From contig NZ_CP045178.1 in NCBI RefSeq assembly GCF_009296025.1, positions 5,580,001 to 5,644,000 of the forward strand: a DNA stretch of 64,000 nt, read 5' to 3'. Under the pieces are notes generated by a model that saw nothing but the letters and a program-made list of their open reading frames with translations, had not been told where the DNA came from and did no database searches. The DNA comes from Streptomyces tsukubensis. GTDB lineage: Bacteria > Actinomycetota > Actinomycetes > Streptomycetales > Streptomycetaceae. The position numbers were made by a program, and so were the translations under genes. Below are positions 38,182-44,025 of this stretch, in pieces; within the stretch, counting starts at the first letter, position 1; each line of letters starts with the position of its first letter.

Positions 38182-38225
38182 GCGGTCCTACTGGGCGAGA
38201 CCGTTCCGCGGTCCTACTGGGCGAG
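38182..38225. repeat. 18-bp direct repeat over the ahpD stop codon
   Basis: GCGGTCCTACTGGGCGAG occurs at 38182-38199 and again at 38208-38225. The second copy contains the last codons and stop of ahpD; the first lies just beyond. It looks like a local duplication of the gene end. Confidence 0.85.
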
Positions 38226-38747
38226 CGTGGCCTCGGTGTCCACGGTGACGCCCACGGCCTGGATCACTGCGGCGATCTTGAAGGCTTCCTGGATCGTCTC
38301 GCGGTCGACACCGGCCTTGCGCAGCACCTGCTCGTGCGAGTCGAGGCACTGGCCGCAGCCGTTGATCGCGGAGACCGCGAGCGACCACAGCTCGAAGTCG
38401 GTCTTCTCGACACCGGGGTTGCCGATGACGTTCATCCGCAGCCCCGCACGGAGCGTGCCGTACTCGGGGTCCGACAGCAGGTGCCGGGTGCGGTAGAAGA
38501 CGTTGTTCATCGACATGATGGCGGCCGCCGACTTCGCGGCGGTGTACGCCTCGGCCGACAGGTTCGCCTTGGCCTCCGGCTCCAGCTCCCGCAACACCTT
38601 GGGCGAACGGGACGCGATGGCGCAGGCCAGAACGGTGCCCCAGAGCTGCTGCTGCGGCAGATCGGAGTTACCGATCACCGAGCCGAGGTTCAGCTTCAGG
38701 TCCTTCGCGTACTCCGGTATGACGGACTTCAGCTCATCGAGGGCCAT
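38214..38747 (-). CDS. ahpD: alkyl hydroperoxidase AhpD
   Basis: A 177-residue AhpD. The redox CxxC is in [14 protein letters not shown] with the nearby proton-relay His. AhpD has weak peroxidase activity and re-reduces AhpC using lipoamide/thioredoxin-type donors. It lies three bases after ahpC and forms an operon with it. The length is normal. Confidence 0.92.
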
Positions 38748-38750
38748 GGG

Positions 38751-39305
38751 TCACTCACCGGCCAGCAGCGCGACCGGGTCGAGGGTCTCCTCGCCGGACT
38801 TCCAGTTGCACGGGCACAGCTCGTCGGTCTGGAGCGCGTCGAGGACCCGGAGGACCTCCTTGGGGTTACGGCCCACGGAACCGGCGGTCACCATCGTGAA
38901 CTGGATCTCGTTGTTCTGGTCGATGATGAAAACAGCACGCTGCGCGAAGCCGTCCTCGCCCTCGACGCCGCAGTCCCGCATGAGCTCGTGCTTGGAGTCG
39001 GCCATCATCGGGAAGGGCAGGTCCGTCAGGTCCGGGTGGTCCTTGCGCCAGGCGTGGTGCACGAACTCGGAGTCACCGGAAGCGCCGAGGATCTGCGCGT
39101 CACGGTCGGCGAACTCGTCGTTGAGCTTGCCGAAGGCGGCGATCTCGGTCGGGCAGACGAAGGTGAAGTCCTTCGGCCAGAAGAACACCACGCGCCACTT
39201 GCCCTCGTAGGACTTGTGGTTGATCTGCTCGAACTCCTTGCCGCTCTCCAGCGACACACAAGCGGTCAGATCGTAGGTGGGGAACTGGTCACCGACAGTG
39301 AGCAT
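38751..39305 (-). CDS. ahpC: alkyl hydroperoxide reductase AhpC (peroxiredoxin)
   Basis: A 184-residue 2-Cys peroxiredoxin that reduces hydrogen and organic peroxides. The peroxidatic Cys is C51 in FTFVCPTE; C164 and C166 in LCPCNW are the resolving pair typical of actinobacterial AhpC. The ATG follows AAGGAG by four bases. In streptomycetes it is transcribed divergently from oxyR and controlled by OxyR. Here oxyR is 3.7 kb away because of an intervening cassette. Confidence 0.94.
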   Translation of the reverse strand: MLTVGDQFPTYDLTACVSLESGKEFEQINHKSYEGKWRVVFFWPKDFTFVCPTEIAAFGKLNDEFADRDAQILGASGDSEFVHHAWRKDHPDLTDLPFPMMADSKHELMRDCGVEGEDGFAQRAVFIIDQNNEIQFTMVTAGSVGRNPKEVLRVLDALQTDELCPCNWKSGEETLDPVALLAGE

Positions 39306-39541
39306 TGCTCTCCTTGATGCGACGTAAGCGCCTTTTGGGGCCTTACGTGAGGGGTTGGGCAGGGATCCACCTTGCCATGGAGGGCATTGATCACAGAAAT
39401 AGGCTGGGTCGGCCTTGTTGATCGGGGTTGGTTATCGCACACACGGGTGGAGGAACGGAGTGGTGGGAGCGGGGTGCCGGGCCGGTGATCCGCGCGGGTG
39501 CGGCCGGTCGGGTGTGGCTCGGCCGCGCCTCGATTCGCCGG

Positions 39542-40195
39542 CTACGCGTCACCCTCGGCGGGGAAAGTGACCGTCCGCAGGACCGCCGTGATCATGTTGC
39601 AGAACTCGGTCCAGTACTCAAGTGACGCGGTGTTCAGGGTGAGTACCGCGATATGGGGCGCGCGGGGAAAGGGTATGTGGACCTGGATCTGACCGGTGAG
39701 GAGCTTGGGCTGCTCTTCGACGGGGGTGGTGCCCTCGGCGGCGATGGTGTGCTCGCGAAGAGTGACGCACGTGACGGAGGGGCCGCAGGGCAGATCGAGC
39801 CAGCGGACGTCATCGAGGGGGTCCCGCCTGAGCGCGGCGAGAGTCCCTCGCGCGGCGGTCTCCGGATCGGTGTGGTCGGAGCCGAACGCGGTGACGGTGA
39901 GGGAGCAGTGCGCGACGCCGGGGCCGTCCGTTCCGAAGATGCCGAGTCCGGCGTAGGCCAGCCCCACGCCGGCCATGGTCTCTGTCACCCGCGTGTAGTA
40001 CGGCGCGGCGGCTTCCCGGAGGGCTGCGTCACCCTGCGGGAAGAGTTCGCGTACGAATCCGTCGACGGCCGAGTCGCGCTGGTCCGGCGATGCCGAGACG
40101 GGGAGTTCGTGAAATCCCTCGGGGAGTACGAACTGGAGGGGCGGGATGCCGGTTTCCGTGACGGTCGCGATCGGGGCCTCGGGTGGTGCCGTCAC
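39542..40195 (-). CDS. cassette protein of unknown function
   Basis: A 217-residue soluble alpha/beta protein (starts MTAPPEAPIATVTETGIPPL). It has no signal peptide or membrane span. A conserved-looking core is FVLPEGFHELPVSA...VDGFVRELFPQGD, and the C-terminus has AVLTLNTASLEYWTEFCNMI. The pattern (a domain ending in a segment about avoiding aggregation of an unknown partner) resembles proteins found downstream of WXG100 substrates in Streptomyces, so a chaperone or immunity role is possible. That is inference. Its start overlaps the preceding gene by four bases (ATGA). Confidence 0.6.
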   Translation of the reverse strand: MTAPPEAPIATVTETGIPPLQFVLPEGFHELPVSASPDQRDSAVDGFVRELFPQGDAALREAAAPYYTRVTETMAGVGLAYAGLGIFGTDGPGVAHCSLTVTAFGSDHTDPETAARGTLAALRRDPLDDVRWLDLPCGPSVTCVTLREHTIAAEGTTPVEEQPKLLTGQIQVHIPFPRAPHIAVLTLNTASLEYWTEFCNMITAVLRTVTFPAEGDA

Positions 40196-41136
40196 TCGGA
40201 CTCCTCGGGGAAGAACCGCTCGCCGGAGGGGGTGTAGTGGGCCGCGTAATGAGCGTAACGACCGCTGGTCAAAGGGATGGCGATGTAGGCGGCGACGCTG
40301 CCGTCGGGCAGTTGGTCGAACATGGGTGGGTCTTCGACCGGCAGCTTCTTACCCAGAAGGCGATCCACTTTGAGAGGTGGATCGGCGACCAGTTCCGCGA
40401 TCCGTTCCCGCTGTGCGTCGGTGAGTGCGTCTTCGGTCACCGGGCGGCGCTCTCCTCGGAAATGCTCGACGAGTCTGCCGGCTTCGCGTGCCTCGAATCG
40501 CGTCCAGGATCCGTCGATGAAATGGATCCGTATGTCGGCGCCTCCGGAGTAGGGCATGCGCTCCGCTTTCGCGATGTGCTCTCGCGGTGTGCTCCATAGT
40601 TCGTATGTCGCGCGTCCTGGCTCACCTTCTCGCGTCTCGTCAGCGCCGAAGACAATGAGTCTGCGGTCGGTAAGTGCGAGGCTGGTGCCGTAATCCTTGG
40701 GGCGTCGGGCGGGATCCAGTTGCCAGGGAAGCGTCCGTGCCAGGGTGTCGGGAGCTGCCCAGATGACGGGAAAATCCTCGGTCTCGTTCTCCGGTTCCGT
40801 GGGTTCCCCCAGTCCCTTGAATTCCCTCACCATCTCGCCCGAAGGTCCGGCAAGATTGAAGGCAAGGTTGATGAGACGGGGAATGTAGCTGATGGCTGTT
40901 CCGAGCCCGATCCCGGCGGCCTGGCTTGTCTTCCCCCGCAGGGCGAAGGGCGGCCTTTCCGGCCATCCTGCCAACTCGTTCTGAATGTCGTTTCTCTCGG
41001 TGTCCCGGAATGAGCGCAGTCCAAAAGTCTTGGTACCGCATCCTGTCGCGAAGACGACGGAGACCCGTAGTGCCAGGGTCTCTCCCTGTGGAGGGACCCA
41101 GTCAGTATTGACGTCGTTCTCTTCAGACTCCTCCAT
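40192..41136 (-). CDS. cassette protein of unknown function
   Basis: A 314-residue protein starting MEESEENDVNTDWVPPQGET. Residues 70-95 are mildly hydrophobic (GIGLGTAISYIPRLINLAFNL). A beta-rich middle part has LALTDRRLIVFGADE and ADIRIHFIDGSWTRFEARE, which looks like a PH-like fold, as seen in many bacterial proteins of unknown role. Start and stop touch both neighbours (one-base and four-base contacts), so it is co-translated with them. No function assigned. Confidence 0.6.
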   Translation of the reverse strand: MEESEENDVNTDWVPPQGETLALRVSVVFATGCGTKTFGLRSFRDTERNDIQNELAGWPERPPFALRGKTSQAAGIGLGTAISYIPRLINLAFNLAGPSGEMVREFKGLGEPTEPENETEDFPVIWAAPDTLARTLPWQLDPARRPKDYGTSLALTDRRLIVFGADETREGEPGRATYELWSTPREHIAKAERMPYSGGADIRIHFIDGSWTRFEAREAGRLVEHFRGERRPVTEDALTDAQRERIAELVADPPLKVDRLLGKKLPVEDPPMFDQLPDGSVAAYIAIPLTSGRYAHYAAHYTPSGERFFPEESE

Positions 41137-42371
41137 CAGTGGGCCGCCGCTGATTGATGGAGCTGGTCGCCGAGGTCGTGCACGTGCCCAGGAACGCTGA
41201 GAACCTTGGGAGCGATCTTGATTCCCGCATCGATACCGCGCCCGAGGTTGCTCATGGAGTCGATATTCTTGAGGCCGGGGATGGCTTGGGTGCCCAGGAG
41301 CTGGCCGTTGCGAATGTTTTTTTCGGCGAGCAAGTTCATACGTCCCGTCATTCCTTTTGCCTCCAGTAGGCCATGAGATTCAGAACCAAATAGCCGGACA
41401 GGGTCCCCCAGTAGTTTGATGTTCGGGGTCTTCAATCCACCTGTGGCCGCAGGACTGCGAGCGATGAACTTCCATCCGTGGGTTTTTGATCCCTTCACCG
41501 TTCCGCCAAGCTTGGCGGCGCGCGTCGCCGCAGTCGCTTCGTCCGCGACCTTGACGCCCTTGCTGAAGGCCCCGATACCAGGAATGGAACCCAAGGCATC
41601 CAATCCGATGGTCACCAGACTGACGTCGGCCCCGGCCGCTTTGGCCACCAGGTGGGAGACGAGTGCGAGCCCGCTGGTGACTACCGCGGCGGTGGCGAAG
41701 ATCGCGCCGATCGGCTCGAACGGAGCGGTGATGATCGCGATCATCGCCAGGATTCCGCCCAGATCTCCGAGCAGATCACCAATGAGCTTGATCAGGTCGG
41801 CGTGATCCTTGAGCCATTTCCCGGCGTCCTTCCACGCGTCCTCGATCCCGTGGCCCAACTTGTCCCAGAATCCCGGCTCGTTCGGGGCGATGTTCCCGGC
41901 CTTGTCCAGATCTTTTGCTATGTGCGCGGCGGCGCGCCGGTACCGCCCCTCCAGGTCATCGACATCGGACTCCGCAGTGGTCACGTCCCCTGAGGCCTTG
42001 GCCATGTCGTCCGTGCCGCTCTTCGCCTTGCCTTTCGCGTCCAGCGCCTTCCCGGCCGCCGTCTCCAGACGGTTCGCCTCGTCCTGGAAGTCCTTCAGCT
42101 CGCCGGCCCACCTGTGCAGTGCGCGGGACGCCTTGTCGAAGGAGTCATGGCTGTCGCGTATCAGCGGCGTGACATCCTCCGAAATGTGGTCGGAGAACGC
42201 GACGGCGGTCTTGCCCTGCCAGCCGCCGCTCTCGATACGTTCCAACTCGCGCAGCGTCGTTCCCAGGTCGTGGGCGAGGCCGCCCAGGGTCTTGGCCAGT
42301 TCGCGGGTGTCCTCCACATCGCCGGGCGTAGGGTCCCAGCCGATGTGCGGGAAGGCGGGGCGCTTGGTCAC
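41136..42371 (-). CDS. large WXG100-domain protein, putative type VII substrate
   Basis: A 411-residue protein. Residues 1-130 form a helical WXG100-like hairpin with the turn motif GGWQGKTAVAF. A second coiled stretch is followed by a Gly/Ala-rich hydrophobic block around residues 215-290 (LLGDLGGILAMIAIITAP) and VTIGLDALGSIPGIGAFSKGV, an arrangement seen in type VII-secreted polymorphic-toxin-like proteins. The C-terminal 110 residues match no toxin fold I recognise. The GTG at 42371 overlaps the stop of the small upstream gene (GTGA). Codons are A/T-richer than the genome norm. Confidence 0.65.
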   Translation of the reverse strand: MTKRPAFPHIGWDPTPGDVEDTRELAKTLGGLAHDLGTTLRELERIESGGWQGKTAVAFSDHISEDVTPLIRDSHDSFDKASRALHRWAGELKDFQDEANRLETAAGKALDAKGKAKSGTDDMAKASGDVTTAESDVDDLEGRYRRAAAHIAKDLDKAGNIAPNEPGFWDKLGHGIEDAWKDAGKWLKDHADLIKLIGDLLGDLGGILAMIAIITAPFEPIGAIFATAAVVTSGLALVSHLVAKAAGADVSLVTIGLDALGSIPGIGAFSKGVKVADEATAATRAAKLGGTVKGSKTHGWKFIARSPAATGGLKTPNIKLLGDPVRLFGSESHGLLEAKGMTGRMNLLAEKNIRNGQLLGTQAIPGLKNIDSMSNLGRGIDAGIKIAPKVLSVPGHVHDLGDQLHQSAAAH

Positions 42372-42673
42372 TTGGCGCGTCCCTTTTCCGGGGTCTTCAG
42401 TGATTCCACGAGGTCCAGGTCGAGCTTCTCGAAGGAGTCGCCGATCTTGTCGATCATCTTGACCGCGTTGTGTGTATGCGTGCCGAGCTGCTTGACGCCG
42501 TAGCCCCACTCGTCTGCGAATTCGTGCACGTTGTCCACGAGTTTCCCGTCGCCCACAGCGGAACCGTCCGTGTTGCGGAGGGTCTTGCGGATCTCGGCCA
42601 TGCGGTCGGCGACCGTCGAGAAAGTTTTCCGCAGATCGGCGAATATCGTGTCATCGAGCCGCAAATCACTCAC
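42368..42673 (-). CDS. small WXG100/ESX-like partner protein
   Basis: A 101-residue helical protein (starts VSDLRLDDTIFADLRKTF). HEFADEWGYGVKQLG near the middle may be the helical-hairpin turn. The GTG at 42673 is preceded by AGGGGG. It is the first gene of the four-gene cassette and is coupled to the large WXG100 protein by a four-base overlap. This small-plus-large layout is typical of type VII substrates and their partners. No EccC-type ATPase is present, so secretion would depend on machinery elsewhere. Confidence 0.65.
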   Translation of the reverse strand: MSDLRLDDTIFADLRKTFSTVADRMAEIRKTLRNTDGSAVGDGKLVDNVHEFADEWGYGVKQLGTHTHNAVKMIDKIGDSFEKLDLDLVESLKTPEKGRAK

Positions 42674-43047
42674 GGTGCTGCCCCCTGGACCTCGGTCGTG
42701 TGTCGTGCTGTCTGACAGGGCGTCCCGACCTTCGTCCCCGGCTGTCGCCGGATACCGATATCGATACCGATGGGTCCTGCCGGCCCGCCCGTCGGCCCGG
42801 ACGCTGTCATGAAACCTGGGGCGGCACTTTACTCCTGGGGGAGTGGCCATACTTCGGTGACCGGTGCGGGATGAGATCAAGCCTGTCCGGAGTCCCAGGT
42901 CCTGTATTCCGGGGGTGCGGTCGACCTCGGGCCTCCCGGCGCCCGCCTCGCGACATGATGGTCACATATCCGGATACAATCGACGCTTGTTGATCGGTGC
43001 CGCCCATCACCGGACGATCAATGACGACACCATGATCAAGGAGCGGA
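42674..43047. other. 374-bp gap between the cassette and oxyR
   Basis: The left part (to 42985) belongs to the cassette and carries its promoter. It includes a GATACCGATATCGATACCGAT repeat-palindrome near 42753-42775. The right part (42986-43047) looks like the original oxyR control region, with TTGATCGG...GATCAAT half sites. Confidence 0.45.
42986..42997 (+). repeat. right copy of the 12-bp cassette-flanking repeat
   Basis: CTTGTTGATCGG, identical to the left copy at 39414-39425. It lies 50 bases upstream of the oxyR start, where OxyR binding sites are expected. Confidence 0.8.
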
Positions 43048-44025
43048 TTGAGTACGAGGATCGCGGCCATCACCCGTAAGCGGCAGCCGACCCTCGCGCA
43101 GTTGCGGGCCTTCGCGGCCGTCGCCGAGGAGCTTCACTTCCGGGACGCCGCCGCGGCGATCGGGATGAGCCAGCCCGCGCTCTCCGGGGCCGTCTCCGCG
43201 CTGGAGGACGTGCTCGGCGTCACACTGCTGGAGCGGACCACCCGCAAGGTGCTGCTCTCGCCCGCCGGTGAACGGCTCGCGCCGCGGGCCAAGGCCGTGC
43301 TCGCCGAGGTGTCGGGACTGCTCGAAGAGGCCGACGTCGTGCGCGCACCGTTCACCGGCACGCTGCGGCTCGGGGTGATCCCGACCGTCGCGCCGTATCT
43401 GCTGCCCACCGTGTTGCGGCTGGCCGGTGAGCGCTACCCGGAGCTGGACCTGCAGGTCCACGAGGAGCAGACCTCCTCGCTGCTCGACGGGCTGACCACC
43501 GGCCGCCTCGACCTGCTGCTGCTCGCCGGGCCGCTCGGAGCGCAGGGCGTCACCGAACTCCCCGTGTTCGACGAGGACTTCGTGCTGGTCACGCCGCTCG
43601 GTCACCCGCTGGGCGGCCGTGAGGGCATACCCCGCGCGGCCCTGCGTGAGCTGAAGCTGCTGCTGCTCGACGAGGGGCACTGCCTGCGCGACCAGGCGCT
43701 GGACATCTGCCGTGAGGTGGGCGGCGGCAATCGCGCCCCCGTGACGACCACCGCCGCCGGGCTCTCCACCCTCGTACAGCTCGTCGCCGGTGGGCTGGGC
43801 GTCACACTGCTGCCCCGTACGGCGGTCGCTGTCGAGACGAGCCGCAGTGATCAGTTGCTGACCGGCTACTTCGCCGGCCCCGCCCCGTCCCGCAGGATCG
43901 CCCTCGCCATGCGTACGGGGGGCGCCCGCGCGGAAGAGTACGAGGCGCTGGCGCAGGCACTGCGGGAGGCGGTGCGGGCCCTGCCGGTGCGTACCTGGTA
44001 CGAGGGGGCGGAGACCGCGGGCTGA
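43048..44025 (+). CDS. oxyR: LysR-family peroxide sensor OxyR
   Basis: A 325-residue LysR-type regulator: winged helix-turn-helix at residues 15-75 (TLAQLRAFAAVAEELHFRDAA), then the effector domain. The redox pair is present as GHCLRDQALDIC, C212 and C221, with the nine-residue spacing of E. coli C199/C208. Peroxide oxidises the pair and activates ahpCD. The TTG at 43048 has AAGGAG four bases upstream; no in-frame ATG fits. The sequence identifies it even though it is separated from ahpC. Confidence 0.9.
   Translation: MSTRIAAITRKRQPTLAQLRAFAAVAEELHFRDAAAAIGMSQPALSGAVSALEDVLGVTLLERTTRKVLLSPAGERLAPRAKAVLAEVSGLLEEADVVRAPFTGTLRLGVIPTVAPYLLPTVLRLAGERYPELDLQVHEEQTSSLLDGLTTGRLDLLLLAGPLGAQGVTELPVFDEDFVLVTPLGHPLGGREGIPRAALRELKLLLLDEGHCLRDQALDICREVGGGNRAPVTTTAAGLSTLVQLVAGGLGVTLLPRTAVAVETSRSDQLLTGYFAGPAPSRRIALAMRTGGARAEEYEALAQALREAVRALPVRTWYEGAETAG

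Follow-up and report, generated by a model that had tools for sequence, protein, structure and literature searches.

What has parted ahpC from oxyR in Streptomyces tsukubensis, and what has become of the operator that both genes commonly share? The question is raised by a stretch of 64,000 nucleotides (contig NZ_CP045178.1, positions 5,580,001 to 5,644,000; the window in the following), in which four genes, here termed P4, P3, P2 and P1, stand between the two divergent neighbours. These genes probably constitute an effector cassette of a type VII secretion system (T7SS) that resides away from its usual home, and its insertion appears to have divided the OxyR operator in such a way that an operator core is present at each of the two genes.

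Insertion between ahpC and oxyR

According to the initial annotation, ahpC and oxyR are ordinarily divergent neighbours and are parted here by four coupled genes; both statements are borne out. The reading frames of P4, P3, P2 and P1 overlap by 4, 1 and 4 bp, respectively, and lie between ahpC on the minus and oxyR on the plus strand (Table 1). Among genomes of named species, ahpC is the direct divergent neighbour at 77 of 80 oxyR loci, with the remaining three (L041, L103, L111) lacking an ahpC match, and the native gap measures 115-275 bp. No match to the cassette at an expectation value (E) of 1e-8 was found in the 80 oxyR stretches, which reach up to 7 kb to each side of oxyR. Cassette genes are likewise absent from all 29 ahpC-oxyR loci whose ahpDC DNA is closest to that of the window, where 27 gaps, measured up to the first OxyR residue in the alignment, amount to 131-188 bp and two to 420 and 424 bp. 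Since ahpC and oxyR adjoin each other at 77 of 80 and at 29 of 29 loci and none of these contains a cassette gene, the cassette is, by sequence comparison, an insertion. Ancestral presence at this site was rejected, the cassette being missing from 77 of 77 measured gaps and from all 29 loci nearest in DNA sequence.

In a tree calculated from AhpC, AhpD and OxyR of 105 taxa, S. jeddahensis and S. himalayensis are nearest to the window (support 0.92), and their gaps of 226 and 223 bp contain a single operator and no cassette. No OxyR closer than 86% at the protein level is present among the matches listed, and the comparison therefore contains no close sister whose site is empty. The OxyR protein of the window scores 239 bits with its top NCBIfam model, which lies under the model cut-off of 329.

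Table 1. Coordinates of genes and operator elements; positions refer to the window except for the last row
Feature	Position	Strand	Remarks
ahpD	38214..38747	-	TIGR00777, above cut-off
ahpC	38751..39305	-	PF00578; start at 39305
Native operator region, ahpC side	39385..39438	+	rank 1 of 127,864 against native matrix
Left copy of CTTGTTGATCGG	39414..39425	+	core of native ahpC-oxyR operator
P1	39542..40195	-	217 aa; Mog1p/PsbP-like fold (predicted); putative role as chaperone or adaptor
P2	40192..41136	-	314 aa; no assigned family; candidate immunity protein
P3	41136..42371	-	411 aa; WXG/T7SS-signal protein; PF21725
P4	42368..42673	-	101 aa; ESX/WXG100-like small protein; GTG start
TACAAT	42975..42980	+	putative -10-like element 5' of right core; layout as in the oxyR-side copy of L205
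Right copy of CTTGTTGATCGG	42986..42997	+	oxyR side
oxyR	43048..44025	+	TTG start; top NCBIfam model PRK11151 OxyR
EssC-like ATPase, own genome (L165)	G000:C2:5136206-5141035		1610 aa; near Tad/Flp-type cluster

The four genes and their usual surroundings

The unit is made up of four genes only, and none of their products matches a recombinase family in Pfam or NCBIfam. P3 is recognized by the T7SS_signal model PF21725 (E 1.5e-6; 28.7 bits, cut-off 27), and its match with WXG100 (PF06013) stays below the cut-off. Its helical N-terminal part is followed by a hydrophobic segment at about residues 191-275, a variable segment (276-340) with a mean identity of 27% and a conserved tail (341-411) with 48%, both calculated over 45 rows. 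Two sequences of solved structures matched P3 (E 0.061) over the hydrophobic part and were taken as chance matches; the sole PADLOC hit, JetC2 on P3 (E 0.0018), was attributed to a coiled coil, and a defence system was dismissed. Many P3 relatives among 120 matches listed in public databases carry the label enoyl-CoA hydratase/isomerase family protein, apparently an erroneous annotation of a T7SS-type protein. P4 passes no family cut-off in Pfam or NCBIfam, its only match being TIGR04197 for T7SS effectors (E 0.013; 16 bits, cut-off 26), and it is termed ESX-like on account of its length and position.

P1 is predicted by structure modelling to adopt the Mog1/PsbP fold, and none of 63 P1 members yields a DUF1795/PsbP match in Pfam. 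Solved relatives were not detected by sequence for P1 at E values up to 10, and P2 gave a single match with E 2.1. Profile relatives of P1 also adjoin other effectors of the EssC island, as indicated by hhalign probabilities of 94.8 for c6 and c8 pooled and 86.8 for one c7 set. P2 has no Pfam match, and no consistent family emerged among 53 of its relatives. In genome G023, five P2-like genes are clustered in one locus (L118, G023:C1:3167114-3172407). Of the four genes P2 is the one duplicated most often: tblastn matches it at least twice in 8 of 34 other loci with a cassette, which is suggestive only as to a cognate immunity gene.

Counted at E values of at most 1e-50, relatives of P3 occur in 32 of 392 Streptomyces genomes with 36 copies. 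Of 245 genomes sampled from the order, 27 contain such relatives, and these belong to two of eight genera, the window's own and one other; from this sample the two copies of Streptomyces sp. Ru71 were placed, and distances between cassette and oxyR were computed for the loci for which they are stated. The initial annotation had envisaged linked occurrence of the four proteins elsewhere with the same flanks. Linkage is confirmed: all of 34 other loci, with 35 copies, combine P3, P2 and P1, and 32 of them also have P4 as judged by tblastn. The stretches compared around these loci contain no ahpC/oxyR flanks. P4-P3-P2-P1 is thus a conserved unit, and most placeable copies lie close to a gene for an EssC-like ATPase: 21 of the 36 within 25 kb, eight elsewhere and seven (two each in G014 and G182, one each in G163, G336 and G050) not placeable because contigs end. 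The eight distant copies comprise that of the window (480 kb), those of G091 (149 kb), G323 (other contig), G272 and G184 (both far), one copy of G079 (184 kb) and two far copies of G105.

The genome that contains the window encodes an EssC/EccC-type ATPase of its own at the said distance of 480 kb. With the EssC model TIGR03928 it scores 551 bits, below the cut-off of 778, and a weak FHA match (PF16697, E 0.0025) is apparent at residues 145-193. The locus is syntenic and holds one other ESX-WXG set without the cassette. In five other genomes, ESX-WXG sets stand beside the EssC-like ATPase, towards a Tad/Flp-type cluster where that is within reach (it is outside the compared stretch in G011 and partly inside in G084). 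This cluster is characterized by a weak CpaB match and a clear T2SSE-type ATPase. A WXG-Rhs-HNH (Tox-HNH-EHHH) protein of 1447 aa is encoded in G023 (L168:7598-11938), on the far side of the Tad-type cluster at a distance of about 11 kb from the cassette; in G040 and G095, relatives from the same BLAST cluster are found between EssC and the Tad-type cluster. The window's own genome also contains several type VII-type ATPases, with four loci over the EccC_a cut-off besides the EssC-like gene. At 5.25 and 2.57 Mb it has additional sets whose P3-like and P1-like members show 25-29% identity.

The probable division of the operator and movement of the cassette

The initial annotation had noticed CTTGTTGATCGG at both cassette junctions. 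The exact 12-mer is indeed present at both and, on both strands of the window, only there, such that the operator core is duplicated with the copies 3.57 kb apart and four genes in between. The repeat alone is modest evidence, since an exact word of at least 12 nucleotides was also common to the two flanks after 3 of 300 dinucleotide shuffles, and to the two members of 10 among 294 pairs of pieces drawn at random from the window. Chance could account for a 12-mer as such, yet the left copy is identified as the native operator by a matrix derived from 76 of the 77 native ahpC-oxyR gaps (69 distinct rows), with which it ranks first of all window positions even if the 12-mer itself is disregarded. 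The exact CTTGTTGATCGG occurs in none of the 77 native gaps, which contain near versions such as CGTGTTGATCGG. The DNA of the left copy is colinear with that of relatives up to about position 39436 and is devoid of the TAGACT/TACACT element carried by relatives in front of the core, which we infer to be the -10 element of oxyR.

The right copy matches the native matrix in the core only. Without the 12-mer its extension ranks 59,026, the upstream part alone 107,527 and the downstream part alone 3,402. TACAAT stands 5' of the right core at nearly the distance of the -10-like element of relatives. The claim of an operator version retained on either side accordingly stands for the left side and in part for the right, where the core alone matches. 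Two loci without any cassette gene, L195 in G320 and L205 in G231, are instructive here, as their gaps of 424 and 420 bp contain two operator copies with about 240 bp between the cores. Their ahpC-side copy lacks a -10-like element and their oxyR-side copy has TAAACT, which is the operator layout of the window. When gapped alignments of the right junction were scored against 2000 shuffles, the score with the native consensus was reached by 47 (full stretch), 1889 (upstream) and 1034 (downstream) of them. The corresponding numbers are 1, 28 and 360 for the oxyR-side copy of L205 and 17, 311 and 173 for L195; the full-stretch scores owe much to the common core.

Seven copies other than that of the window are not linked to EssC. 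Six of them (L124, L130, L181, L185, L188 and L133) comprise the four genes and no match to c4 (lipoprotein-type) or c2 (secreted-type) genes, which are frequent neighbours of the cassette; c4 and c2 are present at the seventh, L132. L124, L130 and L181 occupy a common site in three genomes, near a gene that we take to be a second EF-Tu from its sequence, and L132 and L133 occupy another. None of six relocated copies tested, that of Ru71 not being among them, exhibits a clear flanking repeat. The longest words common to their flanks measure 8-11 bp, and because between 2 and 40 of 40 shuffles attain these lengths, we refrain from calling the repeat a target-site duplication. Comparison of 26 upstream regions gave one blastn match (E 0.13) and revealed no conserved stretch 5' of P4 in common with other cassettes. 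An origin from plasmids or phages was dismissed, with one weak P3 match (27% identity over 63% of the query) in 72,556 plasmid records and none in 50,697 phage records.

Streptomyces sp. Ru71 (L106/G558) contains two cassettes, the first of them some 7 kb away from the EssC-like gene of this genome. The other is a relocated copy (L223, G558:C32, 24303-28866 of the contig) with 57.6% identity in tblastn, c4 and c2 present and no match to P4. Some 9 kb separate it from ahpCD, and the surrounding stretch has many genes in common with the window at 19-47 kb, in the opposite orientation relative to oxyR; the ahpC-oxyR gap of Ru71 is ordinary, 127 bp long and empty. Because this copy came to light only afterwards, we give no estimate of chance for it. 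The ahpCD-oxyR region may receive cassettes more than once.

Two other histories of the site have to be weighed against division of the operator by the incoming cassette. A recombinase-free mobile conflict module might have inserted into the operator and generated a target-site duplication of about 12-25 bp, as the exact repeat at both junctions, the native-like sequence for about 11 bp past the left core and the relocated copies at several other sites would suggest; the Ru71 copy, in its partly syntenic stretch near ahpCD, even speaks in favour of targeting of the promoter region. Against this stand the six relocated copies without a clear repeat and L195 and L205, which possess two operator copies in the absence of a cassette, and we consider a target-site duplication clearly unlikely. 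For the same reasons the repeat is probably the operator rather than the signature of a mobile element. The latter two loci lend themselves to the other scenario, in which the operator was split first and the cassette entered the spacer afterwards. The ahpC-side copies without a -10-like element at L195, L205 and the window alike also speak for it, but the tree does not place these loci next to the window and their spacers resemble those of the window no more than shuffles do. We regard this order of events as rather improbable. As the tree keeps L195 and L205 apart from the window, we infer parallel splitting with selection to retain the core at both genes. From the initial proposal of a mobile conflict module in a stress promoter, a recombinase-free, inserted WXG-type unit with effector make-up and other chromosomal sites remains. 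The repeat as the mark of a promoter-targeting element is not supported, since in addition no match to ahpC, ahpD or oxyR is present in the stretches around the 34 other cassette loci.

Predicted function and comparison with known systems

If the four genes act as a T7SS effector cassette, P4 would pair with the helical N-terminal region of P3 and direct the latter to the EssC-type motor, which would have to act in trans from a distance of 480 kb. P1 may act in the cytoplasm as a chaperone or adaptor of P3 and cover its hydrophobic middle in an Eag-like manner, and P2 could be an immunity or membrane partner. Insertion would have parted the common OxyR operator such that the native site stayed with ahpC, whereas oxyR retained or reacquired a core with its own -10-like element. 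Peroxide control of the cassette, also suggested initially, is hypothetical: the core is present in the right copy without a duplicate of the native upstream elements, and the sequence therefore gives no support to such control and does not argue against it. We put forward only tentatively that T7SS cassettes of Streptomyces with a dedicated Eag-like Mog1/PsbP chaperone leave the EssC island and that in the present case the OxyR-operator core could bring peroxide control.

Several points weigh against an effector cassette that left its island in this way. Secretion, toxicity and binding of P3 are predictions. Its C-terminus lacks the polymorphism of classic toxins, only residues 276-340 being variable; the variable C-terminal domain of polymorphic toxins is thus absent, and no toxin family was matched by the cassette proteins in Pfam. 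The structure model of P3 is poor and mostly helical (predicted local distance difference test score, pLDDT, 68.5). For P1, hhalign probabilities fall to 49.9 with c8 alone, 11.4 with c6 alone and 2.5 with a second c7 set, and k18 and k25 gave no match. Beyond its core, the right operator copy resembles the native operator at chance level upstream and weakly better downstream. Genes resembling c4 and c2 occur elsewhere in the window's own genome next to another P3-like gene, and the cassette may stem from another strain rather than from the genome's own EssC locus. The fold of P1 is ambiguous as well, because the immunity proteins Tsi3 and Tli4 likewise have it. P1 might consequently be the immunity protein and P2 an accessory one, an assignment that appears rather unlikely to us given the P1 relatives beside other island effectors and the duplications of P2. 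The unit might also be no weapon at all and instead encode a T7SS substrate that Streptomyces secretes for structural or developmental purposes. The conserved tail of P3 and the occurrence in two of eight genera would fit such a role, but the toxin-type WXG-Rhs-HNH gene in the neighbourhood of the cassette and its presence in just 32 of 392 genomes do not, and we consider it doubtful.

Should the favoured reading of an effector cassette hold, the locus would define a four-gene T7SS unit in an antibiotic-producing genus and link a chaperone fold of type VI effectors to type VII effectors. It would also illustrate how a common stress operator can be parted with each gene retaining an operator core. 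Each of these points is testable in one strain.

The LXG modules of the T7SSb of Bacillota consist of an LXG toxin, Lap targeting factors and immunity proteins. They share with the cassette a small WXG100-like partner followed by a helical-headed protein and accessory genes, as well as an EssC-type ATPase in the genome. Unlike them, the cassette has a WXG/PF21725 head, a non-polymorphic tail and an additional protein with predicted Mog1/PsbP fold. The Eag chaperones EagT6 and SciW have the PsbP/MOG1 fold and shield hydrophobic parts of type VI effectors; to our knowledge, a chaperone role of this fold for effectors is so far confined to type VI secretion. P1 resembles them in its predicted fold and in its gene adjoining that of an effector with a hydrophobic segment, whereas it differs in its Gram-positive T7SS context and in lacking a sequence match at the Pfam level, and its chaperone binding is a prediction.

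Garrett et al. (2024; PMC11217815) define T7SSa to T7SSj, among them T7SSd as a new subtype confined to Actinomycetota, and the word Streptomyces does not occur in its main text. These subtypes and the island have an EssC/EccC-type ATPase, WXG100 proteins and nearby Rhs effectors in common. T7SS-linked alarmone synthetases with putative immunity genes have been described for Streptomyces (PMC12691689). A description of the cassette or of the split operator was not found among the titles and abstract openings listed from the accessible literature on Streptomyces T7SS or OxyR/ahpC, subscription journals being outside its scope. Compared with the usual divergent ahpCD-oxyR locus of Streptomyces, the window has retained intact ahpCD and oxyR genes and a native operator on the ahpC side, and it differs in possessing the operator core twice with four genes in between.

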